64,000 bases of DNA, taken from assembly GCF_001458735.1 (NCBI RefSeq), contig NZ_CZQA01000008.1, positions 372,001 to 436,000 on the forward strand. The letters run 5' to 3'. This DNA is from Candidatus Nitrospira nitrosa (lineage in GTDB: Bacteria; Nitrospirota; Nitrospiria; Nitrospirales; Nitrospiraceae). Under the pieces are notes generated by a model. It did no database searches. It saw nothing but the letters and a program-made list of their open reading frames with translations, and was not told the DNA's origin. Shown here piece by piece: positions 271 through 44,974 of the stretch (position 1 is the first letter of the stretch; the number at the start of each line of letters is the position of its first letter). The position numbers and the translations under genes are program-made.

Positions 271-2808
271 CTAACTTATCGATCCGAGCTCGAGCTTCTT
301 CTCCCACTTGCGGAGCATGGCCTCGCGCAGCCCCTGATGGGCCGGTTCTTTCAATCCGGGATCAGCTTGTAGCAACGAAAACGCCTCCTGCTTGGCCTCC
401 TCCAGCAGCTCACCATCGCGCACCAGATTGGCGACACGAAACTCCGGCACCCCCCACTGCCGCAGCCCAAAGAACTCACCCGGTCCCCGAATGCGCAGAT
501 CGTCCTCGGCAATGACGAACCCATCGTTTGACCGGACGAGCGCCTCCAGCCGTTCCCTTGCCAGCGACATTGGTTCTTCACTGCCCAGGGTCCGTCTGCT
601 CGATTCCGTTTTCCCCCGTCCTAGATTCTGCGCCATCAGTAGACAATAGGCTTGATGGTTGCTCCGTCCGACTCGACCACGCAATTGGTGCAACTGCGCG
701 AGTCCGAATCGTTCGGCATGTTCAATCAAAATGACCGTCGCATTCGGCACATCCACTCCAACCTCAATGACGGTCGTGGCGATCAACAGCTGAATGGTCC
801 CCGCCTTAAAATCAGCCATCACCGCTTCTTTTTCAGACGCCTTCATGCGTCCATGCAATAGGCCGACACGAAATTCAGAAAATTCTCCATTCTGTAACTG
901 TTCGGCGCCCTGGAGCGCAGCTTGAAGGTCGACCTTCTCCGACTCCTCCACCAGGGGATAGACGATGTAGGCTTGTTTTTCAGCCAGCAATTCATCCCGC
1001 ACAATCTGGTAGGCCCTCCGCCGTTGTCCCTCACTAAACAGGAACGTCCGCACCGGCTTCCGTCCCGGGGGCAGGGCATCGATGATCGAAACATCAAGGT
1101 CACCGTAGACAGTCATCGCGAGCGTTCGAGGAATAGGAGTCGCGGTCAACACGAGCACGTCCGGTCTATAGCCCTTTTCAATCATTGCCTTCCGCTGCAA
1201 CACGCCAAACTTGTGCTGTTCATCGATGACCGCCAAGCCCAGGTTCTTGAATGTGACACCTTGCTGCAGAAGGGCATGGGTCCCGATCGCCACCTGGACA
1301 TCTCCCGCAGCCAGCTGCTCAACCTGCACATTCTTGATCGAGGCTTTCTCACCACCACGCATCAAAACCGTCCGCAGCCCCAAGGCCTGTAACATTCCTG
1401 AAAGGTTGCGATAGTGTTGTTCCGCAAGGATCTCCGTCGGAGCCATCAAGGACGCCTGATAGCCTGACCCACAAGCCATGACGATGGCCTGTAATGCAAC
1501 AGCCGTCTTGCCTGAGCCCACGTCACCCTGGACCAATCGATTCATGGGGCGTGGCGAAATCATGTCTCGAAATATTTCGCGAATGACTCGTTCCTGCGCC
1601 GTTGTGAGCTGAAACGGCAAGAGACTCGTCAACCGTGCAAGCAGCGGGGTCCTGGGATTGAACCGGATCTCCTTCCGTTCGTCATGGACCGATCGGTGTC
1701 TGGACGCTAACGCCAGTTGCAACAGTAAGAGCTCCTCAAACGCCAACCGGCGATGGGCCGCCGTCTTTCCTCGCGCCAATAGATGGTCGTCAGTTCCCGC
1801 CTTTGGGAAATGAACATCCTGGAACGCTTCATTGATCGAGATCAACCGCTGCCTCGCGCGCAGCGACAGCGGCACATGATCGATAAGATCCATCCCATGG
1901 TCCGTCAGGAGGTTCCGCACGAGCACCCGCATCTGACGAGACGTCCACCCTTTGGTTTCATGATAGACAGGAACAATTCGGCCGACATGCAGCGCCGATT
2001 CCACCCCTTCTCCGACGATCTCGTACTGTGCGACGTCCATGCGAGGCACCATCCAGTCTCGTCGACCAGAGATCACCCGCCCACTCAACATCACGCGAGT
2101 TCCAACCGTCAGAACATCTTCCAGATAAGGCTGATTGAAGAACACCACCTGTAGGCGACCAGACTGATCTTCGACGCCGACCTCCAGTATGCTCAGCCGT
2201 CGATTTCTTGTCCGTTTTGCATCGCACTTCCCAACTATCCCGCAAATTGACGCCACCATCCCCGGAACAAGATTTCCGATCGGAGTCATCACCGATCGAT
2301 CTTCATACCGCCAAGGGATGGTCCAGAGTACATCTTCTACCGTGTCGATACCCAGCCGTTGCAAGACAGTGGTGCGTTTAGGTCCAACCCCCTTGGCAAA
2401 TCGAACAGGCTGTCGCCAGAGGTCGGATCGCTCCTCATCAATCGATTCGCTCACATGGATCGATCGCGTCGGCAAGGCCTTCGGACTGGCAGGCTGCGGC
2501 GAGGCCTTTCGAAGTGCCTGGATGTGCGCCCCCGCTACATGCAATCGACGACGCTGTTCATCCAGAGAAAGGGATGATGAAAAATCAACGAAGAGGTCAC
2601 GGAGTGAAATCAGACGAGCTTCGATCGTCCTAGGATACGTCTGTTGGCGAAGAGCCGACAGGACTTGAGTGGAGATGAAATCACTCAGATTGGTGATGGC
2701 CTTGAGATGGGCGCCCTCATCTCGACTTGCGAATTCGATCGGCCGGGCAATGCGATCCAGCCACTCCTGAAACGGTACCAACGGACTCGATTCAGCCTCC
2801 GTCTGCAT
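271..2808 (-). CDS. recG: ATP-dependent DNA helicase RecG
   Basis: RecG is a superfamily 2 helicase that binds branched DNA, reverses stalled forks and migrates Holliday junctions. Visible parts, in 845-residue numbering, are an OB-like wedge domain near 175-280, Walker A GDVGSGKTAV near 428, the DEQH box (IDEQHKFGVLQR) near 529, the TATPIPRTLA motif and the C-terminal QLRGRVGR helicase motif. The protein is longer than the usual ~700 residues because roughly 130 residues precede the conserved VGPKRTTVLQRLGI segment. The frame can be extended to a TTG at 2847, but the ATG at 2808 is the more likely start; neither has a strong Shine-Dalgarno. It is divergent from the protease gene at 2941 and is followed by the hypothetical gene at 263. 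Confidence 0.95.
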   Translation of the reverse strand: MQTEAESSPLVPFQEWLDRIARPIEFASRDEGAHLKAITNLSDFISTQVLSALRQQTYPRTIEARLISLRDLFVDFSSSLSLDEQRRRLHVAGAHIQALRKASPQPASPKALPTRSIHVSESIDEERSDLWRQPVRFAKGVGPKRTTVLQRLGIDTVEDVLWTIPWRYEDRSVMTPIGNLVPGMVASICGIVGKCDAKRTRNRRLSILEVGVEDQSGRLQVVFFNQPYLEDVLTVGTRVMLSGRVISGRRDWMVPRMDVAQYEIVGEGVESALHVGRIVPVYHETKGWTSRQMRVLVRNLLTDHGMDLIDHVPLSLRARQRLISINEAFQDVHFPKAGTDDHLLARGKTAAHRRLAFEELLLLQLALASRHRSVHDERKEIRFNPRTPLLARLTSLLPFQLTTAQERVIREIFRDMISPRPMNRLVQGDVGSGKTAVALQAIVMACGSGYQASLMAPTEILAEQHYRNLSGMLQALGLRTVLMRGGEKASIKNVQVEQLAAGDVQVAIGTHALLQQGVTFKNLGLAVIDEQHKFGVLQRKAMIEKGYRPDVLVLTATPIPRTLAMTVYGDLDVSIIDALPPGRKPVRTFLFSEGQRRRAYQIVRDELLAEKQAYIVYPLVEESEKVDLQAALQGAEQLQNGEFSEFRVGLLHGRMKASEKEAVMADFKAGTIQLLIATTVIEVGVDVPNATVILIEHAERFGLAQLHQLRGRVGRSNHQAYCLLMAQNLGRGKTESSRRTLGSEEPMSLARERLEALVRSNDGFVIAEDDLRIRGPGEFFGLRQWGVPEFRVANLVRDGELLEEAKQEAFSLLQADPGLKEPAHQGLREAMLRKWEKKLELGSIS

Positions 2809-2940
2809 ATGGTGGAGGATCGTAGCACAGCATAGTTCATCGCACAACGCAGCTGGCGAGCCTACGTCGATCTTATCCGCTGCTTTTCCTAGATTGCTTG
2901 GTCACATTTTCCTAGGGTGCTACACTCCTGTCACACCCAT

Positions 2941-4356
2941 ATGTACCGACGCAATATTCGCCACATCCTGATCCCGCTTGCCATCGGTCTGGCTCTCCTA
3001 GTCGGGTACAACCTCTTTCTGAAACCGCTCCATCCCTCGCTGACGATGAGTCCGACGGAAACCGTGGAATCCGTCCCTCCTCCACCGGCCCCTCCACAGA
3101 GCACGCCATCCGAAAGCGACTCACGATACGTTCGCACCCTCGATCAGACCGTCATCCCACCCACCCCACATCAGGCGCTGTTGGAAGGAATTCGTGATGA
3201 AGTCGAAAAGCACAATCTCTCCCTGGCAGAAAGCAAACTGAAGGCACTCCCGGCCTCCGTTCTATCGGATAGACAATCCAAACCCTTCGTCGCCATCCTG
3301 TGGAACAATCTCGGGTTGCAGCAAGAACGTCTCCAAGGTACACGAGCTTCAATCGGTGCGTTCAAGAAGGCAGCGGAACTCGATGACACAAACTCCGTCA
3401 TCCTTATGAACCTGGCCCAAGCCTACTGGGAACAGCGCGACCGCGCACTAGATGCGGAGTTCTTGACGAAATTGATGAAGGTAGCCCCGGACGAACCTTT
3501 CCCTCATCTTGCCATGGCTGATTTGCTGCAGGAACAGGATGATCTGAATGGCGCGGCCACGCACTTGGCCCAAGCCACCCAACGGGCAAAGCAAGACCCG
3601 GCACTCCGATCCTATCTGGCCACCGTCACAGAACGGGTTCAGCGCACACAATCGGTCGAATCTCGCATGACCGCACGCAGCAGCACTCATTTTGTCGTGA
3701 AATTCAATGGAGAGGAAGACCACACCACTTGGACGTCAGTGTTGGAGATTCTCGAGGAGGCTTATCGGGATATCGGCCAGAAGTTTGGGCATTTCCCGAC
3801 TAAGCCCATCATGGTCGTCCTCCACGCAAAAGAATCATTCCAAGGTTCGACTGGCAGCCCTGCGTGGGCCGATGGGCTCTATGACCCCACGCTCGGACGC
3901 ATCCAAATTCCCACACAGGGAGCCACCACAGATCGGAAATGGCTTGCCACTGTACTCCGTCACGAGTACGTCCATGCCCTACTCCATGACCGGTTAGGAT
4001 CACAGGCAGGAGCACTCCCAACCTGGTTGAACGAAGGCCTCGCCATGCAATTGGCTGGAGATTCATGGCCGGATCTCGATGAGGCCATACAAGGCGAGCT
4101 GAAGGTGATTCCGTTGGCTACTCTGGAAGGACCCTGGGGCGCATTCTCGGCCGATGCTTCTACGATAGCCTATCTAGAAGCTAATTCTGCAACCCACTAT
4201 TTGATGGAGCGATGGGGCATGGCTCGCGTCGACGACCTGGTGAAAGCCTTCCAGGCGAAGGCCTCTATCGCAACCGCATTCCAGGACAAACTGCTAATTT
4301 CGTATGAGCAGTTCCAACGTCAATGGCTTGAGCGCTTCGAACAGACCCGTCCGTAA
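2941..4356 (+). CDS. Membrane-anchored TPR protein with gluzincin (peptidase MA-like) domain
   Basis: The 471-residue product begins with a basic stretch and one hydrophobic segment (ILIPLAIGLALLVGYNLFL), so it is probably an inner-membrane-anchored periplasmic protein. A Pro-rich linker follows, then TPR-like helices (about residues 90-220: NNLGLQQERL, MNLAQAYWEQ). The C-terminal domain carries HEYVH near 341-345 and NEG about 20 residues later, the HExxH...E zinc ligand pattern of gluzincin peptidases. This supports a zinc protease, but the substrate is unknown. The frame also extends to a GTG at 2917. I prefer ATG 2941 because the membrane anchor then lies at the usual distance from the N-terminus. 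It is transcribed divergently from recG. Confidence 0.8.
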   Translation: MYRRNIRHILIPLAIGLALLVGYNLFLKPLHPSLTMSPTETVESVPPPPAPPQSTPSESDSRYVRTLDQTVIPPTPHQALLEGIRDEVEKHNLSLAESKLKALPASVLSDRQSKPFVAILWNNLGLQQERLQGTRASIGAFKKAAELDDTNSVILMNLAQAYWEQRDRALDAEFLTKLMKVAPDEPFPHLAMADLLQEQDDLNGAATHLAQATQRAKQDPALRSYLATVTERVQRTQSVESRMTARSSTHFVVKFNGEEDHTTWTSVLEILEEAYRDIGQKFGHFPTKPIMVVLHAKESFQGSTGSPAWADGLYDPTLGRIQIPTQGATTDRKWLATVLRHEYVHALLHDRLGSQAGALPTWLNEGLAMQLAGDSWPDLDEAIQGELKVIPLATLEGPWGAFSADASTIAYLEANSATHYLMERWGMARVDDLVKAFQAKASIATAFQDKLLISYEQFQRQWLERFEQTRP

Positions 4357-4401
4357 TCTCCCCCGTGGCTTGTTCTTCTATCGATCAACCAGTATACACC
4401 G

Positions 4402-5274
4402 TCAAATCGGCACAGGAATCGATTCATCCTGAGGCTGATGTGGCCAGACGGGAAGTAAATCGGCTTGATCATTCAGCGCCCCCTGGGCGCCCTCTTCAGA
4501 CTCTCGCTGAGACAATTGATCTTCCCATATAATCTTCTTCCCGCTCGGATCGTACATACGAATCATGAATTCGAACCTGTGGGAACTGTTTGCCGAAACT
4601 CGACCCAACATCGTGGACCGATCCACGATCGAATGGAGGTGTGGAGTTTCACCCAGCACCGTAGTGAACTCATCCTCCCAGACGAGAGAGCCGGTTACCG
4701 CGTCTACCGCACGCAACAAGAATTTCGGCTGTTCGGTTGCCTGCCGCTCCGTGCGGACTCTCGTGATGGTAGCGCGACCAAACTTTCGAGTTGAAATGGT
4801 TTGGCCCCTCCCCTTTCCGTCAGGTTGCACGAGGTTAAGTCGCCCTTCCCATTGGAATATCCCGGTATTCGCGTCGTAAACCCGCAAGACGAAGTTGGAG
4901 AGGTCTGTAGCCCCCTGTCCGATACCACCTGCAAAAATGCGGCCCCCCTCGTTCCTTCCTGCTCCATCACCTTCCTTGACCGTCAGTTCATAGACATCAT
5001 CGGATATGATCGTGCCTGAGTCAGCTTCATAAACCTTTACCGAAATCGCGGATACAGAACCGATCTGATAACCGAACCCCGCCGCCACAATCGCCTTTTT
5101 CCCCGTAGTGACGTCACCCCAGGCCAGATCATTTCCACCATAGAAACTCCAAAACCCAATAAAGGCTACAAGACTCAGAATCCTTGAACAACCAAGTCCT
5201 AAGACCCGTCGCTTTTCATCTATGGAATGAGTTGAGTGGTGACAACCTTTCGAAACATCAGATGTTTGCGGCAT
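4402..5274 (-). CDS. Exported protein with four PQQ-propeller-like repeats
   Basis: A 290-residue protein of unrecognised family. The start is ATG 5274, preceded by a strong AGGAGG ribosome binding site. One hydrophobic segment (ILSLVAFIGFWSFYG) sits about 30 residues in, suggesting a signal peptide or anchor. The rest contains four diverged copies of a short beta motif: VYEADSGTIISDDVYEL, VYDANTGIFQWEGRL, AVDAVTGSLVWEDEF and MYDPSGKKIIWEDQL. The pattern (D-x-x-[TS]-G-x-x-x-W-E-[DG]) resembles PQQ-type beta-propeller blades, but four copies are fewer than a closed propeller. Residues for PQQ binding cannot be identified. It is convergent with the protease gene, with 45 bases between the stops. 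Function unknown. Confidence 0.7.
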   Translation of the reverse strand: MPQTSDVSKGCHHSTHSIDEKRRVLGLGCSRILSLVAFIGFWSFYGGNDLAWGDVTTGKKAIVAAGFGYQIGSVSAISVKVYEADSGTIISDDVYELTVKEGDGAGRNEGGRIFAGGIGQGATDLSNFVLRVYDANTGIFQWEGRLNLVQPDGKGRGQTISTRKFGRATITRVRTERQATEQPKFLLRAVDAVTGSLVWEDEFTTVLGETPHLHSIVDRSTMLGRVSANSSHRFEFMIRMYDPSGKKIIWEDQLSQRESEEGAQGALNDQADLLPVWPHQPQDESIPVPI

Positions 5275-5392
5275 GTATCCTCCTCAGAATGTGGATGCAT
5301 TCTGATAGAGGGCTGGCGGCCGGTAAATTCCTCACTGATGGGATGAATCCCCTCTAAAGAGAGGGAACGAGACAACCTGGTGGTGATTGTGC

Positions 5393-5806
5393 CTATCGCC
5401 TGGCAGGTTGAGTGACGCCGAACCATCGATACCGATAGCGGGCTATGAGGCGATAGCCCCATCCCGCCAACTGCCGTACCCTGCCGATCCGTAACCCCCA
5501 CTGCATCAGCGTCCCGTCAGGCAGATGAGGAAGAAGAGGGGAAAATGCATCAAGCCCCTGCAGAATCTTTCCGGAAGGTTGGATGCAGAAAGCTGTCTCA
5601 GGTCGACCAGGACGATATTGTTGCCCAAGAGCAGTTCTGGCCGCTTCGCTCTGATAGGGGACGAATCTGATACCCGTTCTTGTTTGACTAATTCCTCGTC
5701 GTTCAAAGTCATTTTTTACCGAGATACAGAGTCGACATTCCTCGTCATAAATCAGAAGACAAGCCTCCAGGGATACCGGCTGCTCCTTCTGATCCTTTGG
5801 CTCCAT
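5393..5806 (-). CDS. DCC-family (DUF393) thiol-disulfide oxidoreductase-like protein
   Basis: The 137-residue protein carries YDEECRLC near residues 20-27, matching the DxxCxxC signature that names the DCC family (YuxK-like), followed by the typical IRFVPYQSE segment. Members have a thioredoxin-like fold and are presumed redox proteins, but substrates are not established. Start ATG 5806 has no strong ribosome binding site. It is divergent from the membrane gene at 5889, and the 82 bases between must hold both promoters. Downstream at 5275-5392 lie two small hairpins (a CAGAATG/CATTCTG stem and a CCCTCT/AGAGGG stem) before the next minus-strand gene. Confidence 0.8.
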   Translation of the reverse strand: MEPKDQKEQPVSLEACLLIYDEECRLCISVKNDFERRGISQTRTGIRFVPYQSEAARTALGQQYRPGRPETAFCIQPSGKILQGLDAFSPLLPHLPDGTLMQWGLRIGRVRQLAGWGYRLIARYRYRWFGVTQPARR

Positions 5807-5888
5807 GATACAAGTTCGCTTTTTCAGAATAACCGCAACTACAAGGCACCCATTGCCGATCTTTTCCTCAACAGTCTATAGTCAGCCC

Positions 5889-6290
5889 ATGCCACACAAT
5901 CCTTTGCTTATTCTGTTACTCAGTACCTTCGTTGTAGAAACTGGATTCCTCTTCCTTGGGAATGGCCCATCCTTCACACAAGGCCTGGCCTGGAAAATGA
6001 GCTTTTTCGCTCTCATCCCCCTTGGACTGTCCCTACTCGTTTGGCTTCGATTTCGATGGAGCGCAGCTGTTTGCGTCTTCTATGCGACGATTGGGTTGGC
6101 TATAGACGTCGCCACAATAGTGCAGGCTCTATCCACGGATGCAGATGCTATCGCTTCCCTAATGGCCAGTCTCATCAGTGGGCTTTTCTATTTCTGCTTG
6201 ATCCTTTTTGGTTGGCAATCATTCTTGGCCGTGGACCAGGAGCTGATGCCTCCCAAATTCCGTCCTCCCAATCCTCCGTTCCCTTCCTAA
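5889..6290 (+). CDS. Small integral membrane protein, four predicted TM segments
   Basis: The 133-residue product has four hydrophobic stretches (LLILLLSTFVVETGFLFLG; MSFFALIPLGLSLLVWL; AAVCVFYATIGLAIDVATIV; ASLISGLFYFCLILFGW) with short loops, so it is an inner-membrane protein. The ATG at 5889 puts the first segment at the N-terminus; an upstream in-frame start at 5805 would add 28 unlikely residues. The family is not recognised. Its last 116 bases overlap the 3' end of the convergent methyltransferase gene. Confidence 0.6.
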   Translation: MPHNPLLILLLSTFVVETGFLFLGNGPSFTQGLAWKMSFFALIPLGLSLLVWLRFRWSAAVCVFYATIGLAIDVATIVQALSTDADAIASLMASLISGLFYFCLILFGWQSFLAVDQELMPPKFRPPNPPFPS

Positions 6291-7242
6291 TCGGAACGGG
6301 TTTGATACGGACAAAACCAGCTTGCTTCAGCCACTTCGCCGTCTCATTAACCGTATAGGTATCCCCCTGTTCAGTAAACAAGAGCATCGAGAGAGCAAAC
6401 AAACTAGCTTCTGTCGGATACAGACCTTCGCGGTCGTGCAGAAAGGCATCTTGGATGATGAATCGGCCACCCGGCTTCAAGGCCGCACGAACTCTCCGAA
6501 AAATGGCCTGATTCGTTTTCGGTGAATAAATGTGCAGCACATTGGAGTACCAGACGACATCATACGTACCAGGGATCGGTTCTTGGGAGAAATCGAGCGG
6601 GAGATAGGAGAGTCGCTCCCTCGCTTTGTGGGTAGAAGCGATTTCTTTGGCCACCTCAAGCGCAGCCACTCGATCACAGACTGTGGCACGCAACCTTGGA
6701 TTCTTTGCAAGAAATGCCAGTGCATAGGTACCAGGCCCACCACCGAGATCCAAGAGGTTTTGCGCGTGACCGAGATGCAGGTGCCCCGCAATTTCCGGAG
6801 CAATTTCCACCGTCCGGTGATGCATCGCCCAAGTAAATTGGCGCCGATGGTCCGGTCCATCTGGCACATCGTGATCAAGCGGCAGTCCACTTTGGATGGA
6901 CTCCGCCAGCCGGATCCAGTCGGTCCAATGGCTCCTGATGAGATGAAGATAACCGCCTCGATAGGTGGGATGATTGGCATTCAGCGCTGTCGCCCCAAGC
7001 TTGCTATTTCTATAGACGCTCCCTTTCTTGTATAACATTCCAGCAGCGGCAAGATTGCGGCAGAGGATACCAAGGCCCCGCTCGCTGACTTTCAGTTTCT
7101 TGGCGAGAGCGGTCAGCGACCAGGTTCGATCACCCACCACCGTAAAAAGATCCATTTCGAGCGCGGCCAACAGCACTCTCGGCAATCGATAAGCGGAAAT
7201 GGCATCACGAAATTCGTTGAATGTCGAAATCCGATTTATCAC
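6175..7242 (-). CDS. SAM-dependent O-methyltransferase-like protein
   Basis: This is a class I methyltransferase with an N-terminal winged-helix/dimerisation region (SLTALAKKLKVSERGLGILCRNLAAAGML). The SAM-binding glycine loop is LLDLGGGPGTYA, followed by post-motif DVVWYSNVLHIY and ALKPGGRFIIQDAFL. The order is that of hydroxyneurosporene- and caffeate-type O-methyltransferases, but the substrate cannot be inferred. The likely start is GTG 7242: it overlaps the upstream stop as GTGA and has a good GGGAAGG ribosome binding site, whereas the longer frame start at 7272 does not. The last ~25 residues (after DGIWEAS) look like a read-through tail antisense to the membrane gene at 5889. Confidence 0.8.
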   Translation of the reverse strand: MINRISTFNEFRDAISAYRLPRVLLAALEMDLFTVVGDRTWSLTALAKKLKVSERGLGILCRNLAAAGMLYKKGSVYRNSKLGATALNANHPTYRGGYLHLIRSHWTDWIRLAESIQSGLPLDHDVPDGPDHRRQFTWAMHHRTVEIAPEIAGHLHLGHAQNLLDLGGGPGTYALAFLAKNPRLRATVCDRVAALEVAKEIASTHKARERLSYLPLDFSQEPIPGTYDVVWYSNVLHIYSPKTNQAIFRRVRAALKPGGRFIIQDAFLHDREGLYPTEASLFALSMLLFTEQGDTYTVNETAKWLKQAGFVRIKPVPIRKGTEDWEDGIWEASAPGPRPRMIANQKGSSRNRKAH

Positions 7243-27088: not shown

Positions 27089-27145
27089 ATTCAGTACTGA
27101 GTCCTTAGGACTGAGGGCTGAGATAGTAAGGAACTGATGGCGATG

Positions 27146-27175
27146 AAGGGCCCGGTGGGAAACCACCGGGCCCTT
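27146..27175 (+). terminator. Terminator-type hairpin after groEL
   Basis: A perfect 13-bp stem (AAGGGCCCGGTGG / CCACCGGGCCCTT) closes a GAAA tetraloop 57 bases after the groEL stop, followed by CGTGTTTTCGT. It is GC-rich with a short T-rich tail, as expected for an intrinsic terminator. Confidence 0.85.
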
Positions 27176-27217
27176 CGTGTTTTCGTATCCCCTGGAATTC
27201 CATGGGGCCGGAGCTGA

Positions 27218-27580: not shown

Positions 27581-29320
27581 CTACTTCGAGCCACTGATGA
27601 GACGAAGCGTCGCCTTGAGAACCGGCGAGGACTTTGGTTCTAGAAAAAGCAACTGGAAGGTACGGTGAACCATCGTCGTATGTCGTTGATGGTCGGCATG
27701 GAAGGACGCGACGGCTTTTTTACGATCCTCGGCCCTATACCCCATCCGAACCGCGCATTTTTCTAATTCGATATCATCATCCGGCAACGCATGAGTCTGG
27801 AGATCGTGAACCATCTGCAATTTGTGCTCAACATCTCGCAGGAATATATAGGCATCGGTCAGTTCATCGCGTTCTCGAATCGAGAGCAGTTTCTTGTTGG
27901 CCATTCGCTTGAGGGAACCGAGCGTACTCCGATCCAGCAGCGTTGGCACCTTCCGCCCAGCCAGAACCTGGATGGTCTGCACGAAAAATTCGATCTCCCG
28001 AATGCCTCCGATTCCCAACTTCACATTGCGTTGTGTATGGCCACGGTCGGTCATTTTGGCGTCGATCATGTCTTTGACTGCGCGAACGTCCTGCACAATC
28101 GCAATCGCTGTGTCTCGATCCAACTTTCCTCCGGTACCGAGCACAAACGGCTTGATCAAGCGGAGGAACGCGAGGCCCACCTCGTGCGAGCCGGCAACCG
28201 GCCAGGCTTTGAGCAACGCCAATCGCTCCCAGGCTTGTCCCCTCGCCGCGTAATACCGCTGATATTCCTCCAGGGAGCGGGCTAATTGCCCCACGGAACC
28301 CTCGGCCCTCAGGCGGAGATCGACCCGAAAGATGTGTCCTTCACGACTTGGTTCAGCCAATACCCTCGTCAACTCGCGGGCGAGGATCTCAAAGTACTCT
28401 TCGTTGGAAATACCGACGCCAGGGGGGGCGGGAGCCCGCCGACCGTTCGGGGCTCTGGTTTCGCCGCCGTGCGCCTCATAGAGGTAGATCAGATCGACAT
28501 CGGAGCTGTAGTTCAACTCATGTCCCCCGAGCTTGCCCATCCCAATGACGGTGAACCCAGTCTCAACCCATCGCCCTTTTCCGGCCTGATGCATCGGCAC
28601 ACCATATTGTTGGCGCAGATCGGCATCGATGATCTCATACGCGGCATGGATCAGCACACAGGCCAGGTCTGACAATGAGGCGGTCGTCTCCGGCACCGTG
28701 GCCCGCTTGAGCAAATCCCGAACGCCGATGCGCAACATTTCCCGCCTTCGAAAACGGCGGAGAGCATCCAGCTTCGTTTCTTTTGCCGCCAGGTGCCCGA
28801 TGCTTTCTCGAAGGGCCCGCTCAAGTTCTTTCCTCGTCGGCACCCGCGAGAGCACGTCTTCTTCAGCCAACCAGTACACCAACATCGGGTCTCGGATAAG
28901 CGTAAAGGCCAACGCATCGCTATTACCGAAAATAGCGCACAGTAGGTCAAGCATGCGCGGCCACGTCCGCAAGTAGTCGAGCAATGACGCACGCGAGACA
29001 CCTCCGAACAGCCGCTCCCAATGATTGAGGGCCTGGTCCGGATCGGCTGTCCGCGAGATGGCCTCCAACATCATCGGCAGAATCTCAGCCAGCCGATTGC
29101 GCTGCAGTGGGTCACCGGCCATCGCCTCGAGATTCTGATCCGCCAGATCAAGATCCCGCAGACCGTAAGCGGATAAGATGGCTCGCACCTGGTCGGCATT
29201 CCGCTTGGTAGCCAGCAACACCGGTGTGGGGTCCGGCGCACGCGACGCGGTCGGTGCTCCCGGTACTTGCGCCTCAGGCCATATTCTTGGGATGCCTGCC
29301 TTCTCAGACTTTCGTTTCAC
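27581..29320 (-). CDS. glnE: Half-length GlnE-like adenylyltransferase/deadenylylase
   Basis: GlnE adenylylates and deadenylylates glutamine synthetase. This 579-residue protein contains one GlnE repeat: an N-terminal helical region, the nucleotidyltransferase core VIGMGKLGGHELNYSSDVDLIYLY near 258-281 (DxD intact), IFRVDLRLRAEGSVGQLARS, the YYAARGQAWERLALLKAWPVAGS block and LGIGGIREIEFFVQTIQVLAG with the GlnD-UR-like helical bundle. Full-length GlnE (~950 residues) has two such repeats, so one half is missing here. The repeat most resembles the N-terminal deadenylylation half. Start GTG near 29320. A Sel1 remnant follows the stop, so a 3' rearrangement is possible. Confidence 0.8.
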   Translation of the reverse strand: MKRKSEKAGIPRIWPEAQVPGAPTASRAPDPTPVLLATKRNADQVRAILSAYGLRDLDLADQNLEAMAGDPLQRNRLAEILPMMLEAISRTADPDQALNHWERLFGGVSRASLLDYLRTWPRMLDLLCAIFGNSDALAFTLIRDPMLVYWLAEEDVLSRVPTRKELERALRESIGHLAAKETKLDALRRFRRREMLRIGVRDLLKRATVPETTASLSDLACVLIHAAYEIIDADLRQQYGVPMHQAGKGRWVETGFTVIGMGKLGGHELNYSSDVDLIYLYEAHGGETRAPNGRRAPAPPGVGISNEEYFEILARELTRVLAEPSREGHIFRVDLRLRAEGSVGQLARSLEEYQRYYAARGQAWERLALLKAWPVAGSHEVGLAFLRLIKPFVLGTGGKLDRDTAIAIVQDVRAVKDMIDAKMTDRGHTQRNVKLGIGGIREIEFFVQTIQVLAGRKVPTLLDRSTLGSLKRMANKKLLSIRERDELTDAYIFLRDVEHKLQMVHDLQTHALPDDDIELEKCAVRMGYRAEDRKKAVASFHADHQRHTTMVHRTFQLLFLEPKSSPVLKATLRLISGSK

Positions 29321-29348
29321 GTTTCACGGTTCCTGGGTCTAGCGCGGC

Positions 29349-29377
29349 ATTATACTGACAGGTTTCTCTACGCACAA
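29349..29377 (-). promoter_or_regulatory. Sigma-70-type promoter of the half-length glnE gene
   Basis: Minus strand: -10 TATAAT (29354-29349), 17-base spacer, -35 TTGTGC (29377-29372; only the TTG matches consensus). The divergent gene starts at 29405. The motif TATACTGAC occurs twice in this short gap (near 29351 and 29394), which may bear on shared control. Confidence 0.5.
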
Positions 29378-29404
29378 TGAACCCATTCAGGTATACTGAC
29401 GTCC

Positions 29405-31684
29405 ATGCCAACCGGCGCACCAGACCGCATCGCACTTCTCAACACGGTCCGTCCGCTCTGCTCTGATGTACCACCCGATATTCTTCAGGATTTCTTCGCC
29501 CGTCTGGATCAAGAATACTTCCAACGGTTCATTCCCCCAACGATTGCCGAACACGTCCGCCTCACGGCCCGACTGACGCCGGAGCACCTGTGCGAAGTGG
29601 TATTTGCCGAACAGCCTGACCAGCGGTGCGTGATCACACTCGTCGCCTATGACTACTTCTCTGAATTCGCAATGATTTGCGGATTGCTCTCAGCCTTTGG
29701 GTTGAACATTGAAGAAGGCGATATCTATACATTTTCAGAAAAAACTGCTCCCTTATCCGCTCGGACAAGTTGGAGCGAGTACGGATCGCGGGTTCGTCCC
29801 AAGGCCACCCCAGGCTTGACCCAGAAGAAGATCGTTGATGTGTTCCGTGTACATCCAGTCCCTGGGGTGGAGTTAGGAGCGGACCAACAACATCAGCTCA
29901 CTGCGGCACTCTCCTCAGTGATCACCCTGCTGGACAAAGGACACTTTGAGGAGGCACGCTTGACCGTGAACCGTCGCCTCGTGGAACAGCTCGGCAAACG
30001 ACGAGGCTCTTTCAGTGGCCTGCTTCATCCCGTGCAGATCACCTTCGACAACAGTCAATCACCAGCGGACACGGTTATGGAGATTCGGTCGGACGATACG
30101 CCGGCCTTCTTGTACGCCTTTGCCAATGCCCTTGCGATGCGGAATGTGTATATCTCCAAAGCGCAGTTTGATGTTGAAAACGGGAAAATTCATGATCGAT
30201 TTTATGTCCGCAATCGCCACGGCCAGAAGCTCACCGATGCGACCGATCAGCAGCAGTTACGTCTTACAGCCGTCCTCATCAAGCAGTTTACCCATGCCCT
30301 CACCTGGGCTCCGGATCCGACCAAGGCGCTAGAAGCCTTCGACCAATTTCTCGATCTGACGGTCCAGCAGACAAAAGGCAAGGCCCAGCAAGAAGCCTTG
30401 GCCTTTTTAAGCGACAAAAAAACCTTTCCGCTGCTTGCCCGCCTGCTCGGCGCCAGCGATTTCCTCTGGGAGGACTTTCTCCGTCGCCAACACAGTAATC
30501 TTTTACCTCTGCTGCAAGACTACCGGGATGCTTCCCTCATCACTCCGAGAGCCACGCTGCGCAAGGAACTGGATCGTCTGGTCAACCGTGCCAAAACCGA
30601 TGCAGATCGGAAAGCCGTGCTGAACAGCTTCAAGGACCGCGAAATGTTTCGTATCGACATGAAGCACATTGTCGAACCGGACACAGCCCTGCCTGATTTC
30701 TCCGCTGCCCTCACGCAGCTGGCCGAAACCATCCTGGATCGAAGCTTAAAGGACTGCCAAGCCAAGCTGAACAAATTGTATGGTCCACCGCGACTGGCCA
30801 ATAAGAAGCCCTGCCCCTTCACCGTCCTCGGCTTGGGAAAATTCGGAGGGAAAGAGCTGGGCTATGCCTCCGACATCGAGGTCTTGTTCGTCTATGGAGA
30901 TACCGGCCGGACCGGCGGGAAACGCCCCATCGACAACAGCGAATACTTTGAACGGCTTGGATACGAGCTCCTCCAATGGATCGAAGCGAAACAAGAAGGC
31001 ATCTTCCATGTGGATGTCCGCCTTCGGCCTCACGGTGGAAAAGGCTCGCTCACGAATCCCTTCGATGAAATCGCCAAGTACTATAGTGACGAGGGGCTTG
31101 CCGCACCGTTTGAACGCCAGTCGTTGATCAAACTGCGCCATGTCGCCGGTGATCCGGATCTCGGGAAACGGGTGGAAATCCATCGCAACCACTATGTCTA
31201 TAGCGGCAAAGCATTGGATCCAACGATCGTTCTCGATGCGCGCCGTCAACAGTTGAAGCAGCTCGTGGAACGAGACACCGTGAACTTGAAGCACAGCCAA
31301 GGCGGGATCGTTGACATTGAGTACGCCATCCAATACCTCCAGATTAAACACGGACAGCGCCTCCCCATCTTGCGGACCCCCAACACCATGCAGGCCCTCG
31401 CAGCGCTTGTCGATTGTGGAATGGTGACCAGACAGGACGGCGAGATGCTGCGCAAGGCCTACTTCTTTATCCGGATGCTCATTGACGGCCTTCGTATGGT
31501 CCGTGGTAACGCCAAGGATCGCGTCCTTCCACCTGTCGATTCGGACGAATTTATCTTCTTGGCCCGCCGCGTCGGCTACACAACTGATGACTGGCAAGCC
31601 GGCGCACGTCACCTTCACACAGACATTGCGCAGCACATGAACCTCACGAAAGAATTCTTCGAGCGGACATTCGGAAAGGTATAA
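29405..31684 (+). CDS. ACT-domain / GlnE-type nucleotidyltransferase fusion
   Basis: The 759-residue protein has two ACT-like segments in its N-terminal half: CVITLVAYDYFSEFAMICGL near 75-94 (running on to about 110) and a second near 224-276 (SDDTPAFLYAFANALAMRNV then KIHDRFYVRNRHGQKL). A GlnE-type half follows, with VLGLGKFGGKELGYASDIEV near 474-493, IFHVDVRLRPHGGKGSLTNP, FERQSLIKLRHVAGDPDLGK and SQGGIVDIEYAIQYLQ. The second catalytic acid is Glu (DIE) where GlnE usually has Asp (DID); the wider nucleotidyltransferase superfamily accepts either. ACT domains bind amino acids, as in GlnD, so a glutamine-sensing regulator acting on glutamine synthetase or PII is a reasonable inference. It is divergent from the half-length glnE. 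Confidence 0.75.
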   Translation: MPTGAPDRIALLNTVRPLCSDVPPDILQDFFARLDQEYFQRFIPPTIAEHVRLTARLTPEHLCEVVFAEQPDQRCVITLVAYDYFSEFAMICGLLSAFGLNIEEGDIYTFSEKTAPLSARTSWSEYGSRVRPKATPGLTQKKIVDVFRVHPVPGVELGADQQHQLTAALSSVITLLDKGHFEEARLTVNRRLVEQLGKRRGSFSGLLHPVQITFDNSQSPADTVMEIRSDDTPAFLYAFANALAMRNVYISKAQFDVENGKIHDRFYVRNRHGQKLTDATDQQQLRLTAVLIKQFTHALTWAPDPTKALEAFDQFLDLTVQQTKGKAQQEALAFLSDKKTFPLLARLLGASDFLWEDFLRRQHSNLLPLLQDYRDASLITPRATLRKELDRLVNRAKTDADRKAVLNSFKDREMFRIDMKHIVEPDTALPDFSAALTQLAETILDRSLKDCQAKLNKLYGPPRLANKKPCPFTVLGLGKFGGKELGYASDIEVLFVYGDTGRTGGKRPIDNSEYFERLGYELLQWIEAKQEGIFHVDVRLRPHGGKGSLTNPFDEIAKYYSDEGLAAPFERQSLIKLRHVAGDPDLGKRVEIHRNHYVYSGKALDPTIVLDARRQQLKQLVERDTVNLKHSQGGIVDIEYAIQYLQIKHGQRLPILRTPNTMQALAALVDCGMVTRQDGEMLRKAYFFIRMLIDGLRMVRGNAKDRVLPPVDSDEFIFLARRVGYTTDDWQAGARHLHTDIAQHMNLTKEFFERTFGKV

Positions 31685-43139: not shown

Positions 43140-44549
43140 CTAGACGTCGTAATACATGTAAAACTCGTACGGATGCGGACGCAGGCGCAGCGGGTCAATC
43201 TCTTTGCTCCGCTTGTAGCCGATCCACGCTTCGACGAGATCTTCCGTAAACACCTCTCCCTTGAGGAGAAACTGGTAGTCCTTTTCCAAACTGTTCATGG
43301 CCTCATCCAAGCTCCCAGGCATGGTGGGGATACTGGCTGCTTCCTTCGGATCGAGATCGTACAGGTCCTTTTCCGCTGGCTCACCTGGGTTGATCTTGTT
43401 CTGAATCCCATCAAGCCCCGCCATGAGCATCGCCGAAAACGCCAAATACGGATTGCAGGATGGATCTGGAAATCGCACTTCAATTCGCTTCGCCTTGGGA
43501 CTCGGCGAATACATCGGAATACGGACGCCCGCCGACCGGTTCCGACTGGAGTAGGCCAACAGCACCGGCGCTTCGAATCCCGGAGTAATGCGCTTATAGG
43601 AGTTTGTCGTTGGATTCGTAAAGGCCGCCAGAGCCGGCGCGTGCTTCAGAATGCCGCCGATATAATACAGGCAGAGCTGTGAAATCCCAGCATAGTCTTT
43701 CCCGGCAAAGAGCGGCTTCCCCTCTTTCCAGATGCTCTGGTGCGTATGCATCCCAGATCCCGCATCGCCGAAGAGCGGTTTAGGCATGAAGGTCACCGTC
43801 TTCCCATGACGACGAGCCACATTCTTGACGATATACTTGTACATCATCATCTTGTCTGCCGTGCGCAGGAGCGTATCAAATCGAATGTCGATCTCAGCTT
43901 GGCCGCCAGTGGCGGTCTCATGGTGGTGCTTTTCTACCTCAATGCCGATCTTTTCCATCTCCAGAACCATTTCGCTGCGAATATCTTGCTGGGTATCGGC
44001 CGGCGCCACGGGGAAATACCCTTGCTTATGCCGAAGCTTTCCCCCGAAATTGATTCCCTCTTGTCCCATGTTCCAAGCGCCTTCTTCCGAATCTAGGTAA
44101 TAGAAGCCGCTGTGGCTCGTCTGATCATAGCGCGCATGATCGAAAATAAAGAACTCTGCTTCAGGCCCCCAGAACGAGTTGTCACCAATCTTGGTGCTTT
44201 GGAGATACCGCTCCGCCTTCTGCGCGATAAACCGTGGATCTCGTTCGTAATTTTCACGAGAAATCGGATCCACGACATTGCCGGTCAAGCTGAGCGTGGG
44301 TACTGCGGTAAACGGATCCAAGAAAGCCGTCGCCGGATCAGGGACCACCAACAAATCGCTATTGTTAATCGCCTTCCAGCCACGAATCGACGATCCGTCC
44401 AGGCCGGAGCCGTCCTTGAACAAGGTTTCCGTCAGTTCGCTCACAGGGATGGTCATATGCTGCCACACACCCGGCAGGTCGATGAATTTCAAGTCCACCA
44501 TCTGCACCCTGTGCTTCTTCGCGAACTCCAAGACCTCACGCACGTTCAT
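43140..44549 (-). CDS. glnA: Glutamine synthetase, type I
   Basis: GlnA makes glutamine from glutamate, ammonia and ATP. The 469-residue enzyme has normal GSI length and motifs: [62 protein letters not shown] and [29 protein letters not shown] (in part). The adenylylation loop reads [11 protein letters not shown], with the Tyr that GlnE-type enzymes modify, so activity control by adenylylation is expected. It follows glnB by 59 bases on the same strand. The ribosome binding site AAGGAGG is strong. Confidence 0.98.
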
Positions 44550-44608
44550 TGCCGTCCTCCTTTGGAGATCTTCGGTGATGACTGTTCACCACTCAAGTCT
44601 CGTTCCCC

Positions 44609-44974
<366 letters not shown>

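Follow-up and report, generated by a model that had tools for sequence, protein, structure and literature searches.

A divergent gene pair encoding a half-size GlnE and an ACT-GlnE fusion as a putative split adenylylation switch in Nitrospira

The bifunctional regulator GlnE, a textbook case, is built of two homologous repeats, one to each half. In a 64,000-nucleotide stretch of the genome of Candidatus Nitrospira nitrosa (hereafter the window; contig NZ_CZQA01000008.1, positions 372,001 to 436,000), these repeats are encoded by two divergent genes, one for a half-size GlnE of 579 amino acids (aa) and the other for a 759-aa fusion of a GlnD-type linker and two ACT domains to one GlnE repeat. 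We favour, with moderate confidence, the interpretation that the two proteins form a switch acting on Tyr397 of glutamine synthetase (GlnA) whose adenylylating arm incorporates an amino-acid sensor. The pair is an old, class-wide rearrangement of a classic regulator, and no paper describing a split GlnE or an ACT-GlnE fusion was found in the literature searched.

The divergent gene pair

The half-size gene lies on the minus strand (27581..29320) and the fusion gene on the plus strand (29405..31684). The 84-bp intergenic region between their start codons (29321..29404) was searched for a consensus sigma-70 site, and none scored. Both open reading frames, and the presence of a single repeat in each protein, had been proposed in an original prediction made from the sequence alone, and both proposals were confirmed. 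Each protein has one match to the GlnE nucleotidyltransferase domain PF03710 and one to the helical domain PF08335, all above the curated cut-offs. These cover residues 127-387 (E 2e-61; 28160..28942, minus strand) and 421-559 (E 1.4e-30; 27644..28060, minus strand) of the half-size protein and residues 344-590 (E 8.5e-43; 30434..31174, plus strand) and 625-755 (E 1.5e-15; 31277..31669, plus strand) of the fusion. The best whole-protein GlnE equivalog scores were below cut-off for both the half-size protein (347.3, cut-off 487) and the fusion (195.5, cut-off 625). Their AlphaFold models had mean predicted local distance difference test (pLDDT) scores of 87.1 and 82.8, respectively.

The ACT similarity claimed for the fusion was recovered by profile searches. 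The end of the GlnD model TIGR01693 (positions 619-842 of 850) aligns with residues 26-286 (E 1.9e-19), the ACT end of the fusion also matches PRK05092 (E 2.4e-21), and Pfam detects the second ACT domain alone (PF24931, 30.6 bits, cut-off 27) with a family that matches Nitrospira GlnD as well. The predicted number of two ACT-like domains agrees with the AlphaFold model, which has two such units at residues about 63-177 and 211-296. We place the ACT1 region at residues about 60-178 (29582..29938, plus strand) from the GlnD-model match and the AlphaFold model, and ACT2 at residues about 211-296 (30035..30292, plus strand). Against the whole GlnD model the fusion scores 69.4 bits, below the cut-off of 519.4, and a profile search found no HD domain match in it. 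At the level of fold, fusion residues 7-191 (within 29405-29980) match residues 463-616 of the large glutamate dehydrogenase of M. smegmatis (Z 14.5, root-mean-square deviation (rmsd) 3.0, 143 aligned), which suggests that a helix-plus-ACT module may be common to that enzyme, GlnD and the fusion; sequence models of this N-terminus favour GlnD over the glutamate dehydrogenase match.

The genome is a 4.42-Mb assembly that is 99.99% complete. A PF03710 search of all of it matched only the half-size and fusion genes and found no full-length GlnE, so the proposed split is not accompanied by a complete glnE elsewhere. The search for GlnD with TIGR01693 showed it to be absent from the whole genome, with two partial matches only. 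These are the ACT end of the fusion and a short match (model positions 660-725) in a 725-aa open reading frame that resembles the ACT domain of RelA/SpoT, and we therefore rejected a hidden GlnD. Complete single-contig relatives likewise lack GlnD. The presumed substrate, GlnA (469 aa; 43140..44549, minus strand), is present in one copy, and its adenylylation site is intact as predicted, the tyrosine being exactly residue 397 (43359-43361) within KDLYDL. Directly upstream of glnA is the only canonical PII (GlnB/GlnK) of the genome, which carries Tyr51 (44609..44947, minus strand). Four other, weak PII-like proteins (L007, L008, L009 and L010) lack the canonical T-loop, and the genes for three of them lie on contig C1, no more than about 25 kb apart.

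Assignment of the two arms

The GlnE N-terminal domain removes adenosine monophosphate (AMP) from its target and the C-terminal domain adds it (PMC12409994); we refer to these as the deadenylylating (AR) and adenylylating (AT) halves. In an unrooted tree of repeats, the half-size protein groups with the N-terminal halves of full-length GlnE (support 100/98), and it scores 63-118 bits better against AR than against AT profiles. It keeps 12 of 22 AR-typical positions and the fusion four. The most telling of these, the AR-only residues N169, S171, R324, Q385 and Q391 (in E. coli GlnE numbering; 160, 162, 315, 376 and 382 when counted from residue 10), are all present in the half-size protein and all lost in the fusion. 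Its structural model fits the AR domain 1v4a (Z 42.5, rmsd 2.4) better than the AT domain 3k7d (Z 39.6, rmsd 4.0), and sequence comparison gives the same order (E 1.4e-56 versus 1.5e-35). The catalytic pair is DVD (Asp274 and Asp276; 28493..28501, minus strand) in an AR-type context, GGHELNYSSDVDL. Because of the tree grouping, the AR profile, the AR-only residues and the best fit to 1v4a, the half-size protein can be assigned with confidence to the N-terminal, deadenylylating half of GlnE.

The fusion carries a strongly diverged GlnE repeat that lacks the AR signature. Among eight AT-typical positions it keeps two (R828 and Q785 in E. coli numbering, 344 and 301 in alignment numbering) and the half-size protein one. 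As the half-size protein is the AR arm, the fusion is by elimination the probable AT arm. Thus, of the split adenylylation/deadenylylation system originally proposed, the deadenylylase is identified and the adenylylase is assigned by elimination, whereas glutamine sensing and catalysis are inferred.

Distribution and age of the pair

A survey of 148 genomes from the phylum found the two-gene state in the window's class, in families f1, f2, f3 and f5; from family f4 only a partial fusion at a contig end was read. In the other classes GlnE is either full-length (about 930-1080 aa) or absent. The genes are head to head in all class members read except those of family f3, in which the pairing outlasted a change of gene arrangement. 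The f3 locus (L059 in genome G117, 1910-6384) has the two genes convergent, with overlapping 3' ends. Among the best 80 of 447 relatives in the genome collection, from which our named loci are taken, the pair is divergent in all 78 with enough flanking sequence; their titles read Nitrospira, Nitrospiraceae, Nitrospirae or Nitrospirota, except for one labelled Nitrosospira. Recent truncation of the half-size gene and assembly error were rejected because the pair is class-wide.

Both genes are jointly missing from several genomes that are at least 90% complete (G165, G172, G179, G185 and G153). Two of one genus (G165 and G172) and two small genomes of another (G179 and G185) each have one weak match (E 2e-6 to 8e-6), such as GlnD itself would be expected to give; G153 has no match at all. 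The joint absence is consistent with a report of Great Lakes Nitrospira without glnE (PMC9239080).

Loss of GlnD and retention of PII

Most relatives carry the pair together with a full GlnD. The pair is therefore older than the loss of GlnD, and the ACT domains did not arise to replace it. The GlnD-type sensor that had been proposed for the fusion is present, but the idea that it arose as a late GlnD substitute was rejected. We also considered whether the ACT module originated within Nitrospira GlnD. A tree placed the fusions in a single long-stemmed clade that did not nest within the GlnD of the class, but it included some wrong-frame GlnD rows from minus-strand loci and was not used further.

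In the window's genus, GlnD is missing from 20 of 26 sampled genomes (G000, G027, G036, G043, G050, G091, G099, G102, G145, G197, G203, G206, G209, G212, G215, G218, G221, G224, G227 and G230), two of them single-contig, and kept in six (G009, G070 with a partial, 739-aa frame, G088, G108, G115 and G200). The gene order is PII-GlnD-GlnA in members with GlnD (NadE lies upstream in three of five such loci read) and NadE-PII-GlnA in those without it; glnD was hence lost cleanly from between glnB and glnA. This loss in most sampled genus members, with PII Tyr51 nevertheless kept, was noted from the window (44550-44947) and five further loci (L281, L282, L284, L285 and L286). Whether or not they have GlnD, all genus members read share the same PII T-loop segment, with one exception (KGHKEMYRGQEY), and all GlnD-less genomes read have a PII with an intact T-loop.

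Of the 16 genus members that bear ammonia monooxygenase (AMO), 14 lack GlnD, but all ten AMO-bearing genomes of another genus keep it, so that the loss cannot be put down to ammonia oxidation alone. In these counts the genomes are non-independent where they are related, and amo genes may be missing from some bins. The genome studied here has two amoA-type genes (G000:C1:66037-66744 and G000:C11:106121-106828) and is therefore that of a complete ammonia oxidiser (comammox). Its only Amt/Rh family transporter looks Rh-type by eye. Since comammox clade A is reported to have Rh-type transporters and clade B and canonical Nitrospira the Amt type (PMC6311188), the amoA genes and the transporter lead us to take the genome as comammox clade A.

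Proposed mechanism and its alternatives

Adenylylation in E. coli is promoted by unmodified PII and glutamine, deadenylylation by uridylylated PII (PII-UMP) and 2-oxoglutarate (PMC6490700); in GlnD, glutamine sensing is attributed to the ACT domains (PMC3173338). On the interpretation we favour, GlnE function would be divided between the products of the divergent pair, the 579-aa protein taking AMP off GlnA Tyr397 and the 759-aa protein putting it on. The linker and two ACT domains at the N-terminus of the latter correspond to the end of GlnD that senses amino acids, and would place adenylylation under the direct control of glutamine or a related amino acid; unmodified PII would act on it as well. 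We infer the AT activity of the fusion, its ligand, the direction of its regulation and any contact with PII or between the arms. In most of the class the split switch would operate alongside the classical GlnD-PII cascade. The window's lineage no longer has a GlnD to uridylylate PII, and no GlnD-like sensor other than the ACT-GlnE fusion was found; the AR arm cannot receive PII-UMP from GlnD, and its control must therefore differ. A bolder version, which we put forward tentatively and regard as doubtful, is that in GlnD-less comammox Nitrospira the GlnD-PII-GlnE cascade has collapsed to a one-tier switch, in which a glutamine-sensing AMP-adder and a separate AMP-remover act directly on glutamine synthetase and PII, never uridylylated, reports 2-oxoglutarate and energy only.

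Several observations weigh against a glutamine-sensing adenylylase. The AR-minus-AT profile scores of the fusion run from -22 to +17 bits, which is a tie; in the unrooted tree the fusions stand apart as a clade, with a long branch (1.58), between the N- and C-terminal halves; and the model of the fusion fits both E. coli domains about equally (Z 41.9 and 40.4). Three attempts to assign the fusion to AT, by tree, profile and fold, were thus not decisive. Its catalytic pair is DIE, whereas the other GlnE repeats in the alignment have DxD. The near-invariant glycine of the β1-α1 ligand loop of ACT2 is alanine in all aligned fusions, whose loop reads D[ST]PAFL; the GlnD of Nitrospira has D.QGLL there and that of E. 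coli DQPGLL. Judged by this loop sequence, glutamine binding by ACT2 is not assured.

The loop change speaks for an alternative that we consider unlikely, in which the split GlnE is under PII alone and the fusion adenylylates GlnA, its ACT domains binding no amino acid and serving dimerisation or contact with the AR arm. ACT1 lacks the loop glycine too, having Ser or Ala at that position, although the ACT1 of E. coli GlnD is likewise without it, and the intact T-loop of PII in the GlnD-less genomes also fits such control. The selective constraint on ACT2 speaks against this alternative. We estimated ratios of nonsynonymous to synonymous substitution (dN/dS) with the pairwise Nei-Gojobori method, in which some pairs had saturated dS, and ACT2 is the most constrained region of the fusion (0-0.03). 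Both ACT units and the preceding linker are also kept class-wide. Each of these observations would, however, fit a structural role as well.

A second alternative, which we regard as quite improbable, gives the fusion little or no catalytic activity and makes it a regulatory subunit controlling the half-size protein, which alone would perform both reactions or only deadenylylation. The long branch of the fusion and the replacement of the second catalytic Asp by Glu would be expected under this scenario. The predicted DIE pair is present (Asp490 and Glu492; 30872..30880, plus strand) and does not indicate a defect. It occurs in every fusion read (all 78 named loci in which the motif was read and all 29 fusions read elsewhere), and because it is fixed in every relative read it is a class-wide conserved feature and no decay. 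The fusion also keeps Asp490 and nearly all residues that are invariant across GlnE repeats, including the third Asp (Asp537, in VDVRLRP). Its dN/dS is low over the whole gene (0.045-0.095, versus 0.074-0.126 for the half-size gene) and in the nucleotidyltransferase part (0.036-0.075), and the fusion is under purifying selection. Kanamycin nucleotidyltransferase is an active nucleotidyltransferase of the same fold. It also has an SDIE motif (the identity of the 54-residue query was confirmed), and Glu is therefore compatible with the chemistry of this fold. Finally, the half-size protein has AR residues and not AT residues.

That the fusion stands in for GlnD by modifying PII (at Tyr51) or a protein other than GlnA is very improbable despite its GlnD-type sensor and the retention of Tyr51 and the T-loop in GlnD-less genomes, as most of the class has both the pair and GlnD, the catalytic part of the fusion is GlnE-like and not GlnD-like, and the T-loop residues may be kept for binding alone.

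Outside these loci, the window has a strong terminator-like hairpin of 16 pairs directly downstream of groEL (27143-27178).

Comparison with known systems

With the arms naturally separate and a sensor on only one, the input to each arm would be measurable apart, and lineages with and without GlnD offer a ready natural comparison. The split and the loss of GlnD suggest a rewired control of ammonia assimilation in the window's ammonia-oxidising lineage, and they bear on how comammox Nitrospira set the share of ammonia that is assimilated. Annotation that counts 'a glnE' in these genomes overlooks the split.

The system is a variant of GlnE and no new kind of system. Like the GlnE of E. coli and of other Nitrospirota classes, it has two nucleotidyltransferase-plus-helical repeats and GlnA Tyr397 as presumed substrate, and its half-size protein corresponds to the N-terminal AR half. 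Unlike in GlnE, the Nitrospira repeats are on two divergent genes without a common linker, so that there is no two-repeat polypeptide of ~950 residues, and the second repeat has DIE for DxD and two N-terminal ACT domains. With GlnD the fusion shares the C-terminal linker and two ACT domains (residues 26-286), but it lacks the N-terminal catalytic domain and the HD domain of GlnD, carries the sensor N-terminal to a GlnE repeat and has Ala for the ACT2 loop Gly. Kanamycin nucleotidyltransferase (1kny) shares the fold and the SDIE motif and so provides a precedent for Glu at the second position, although its substrate is unrelated and the match is a weak, fold-level one (Z 6.5, rmsd 3.4, 119 aligned).

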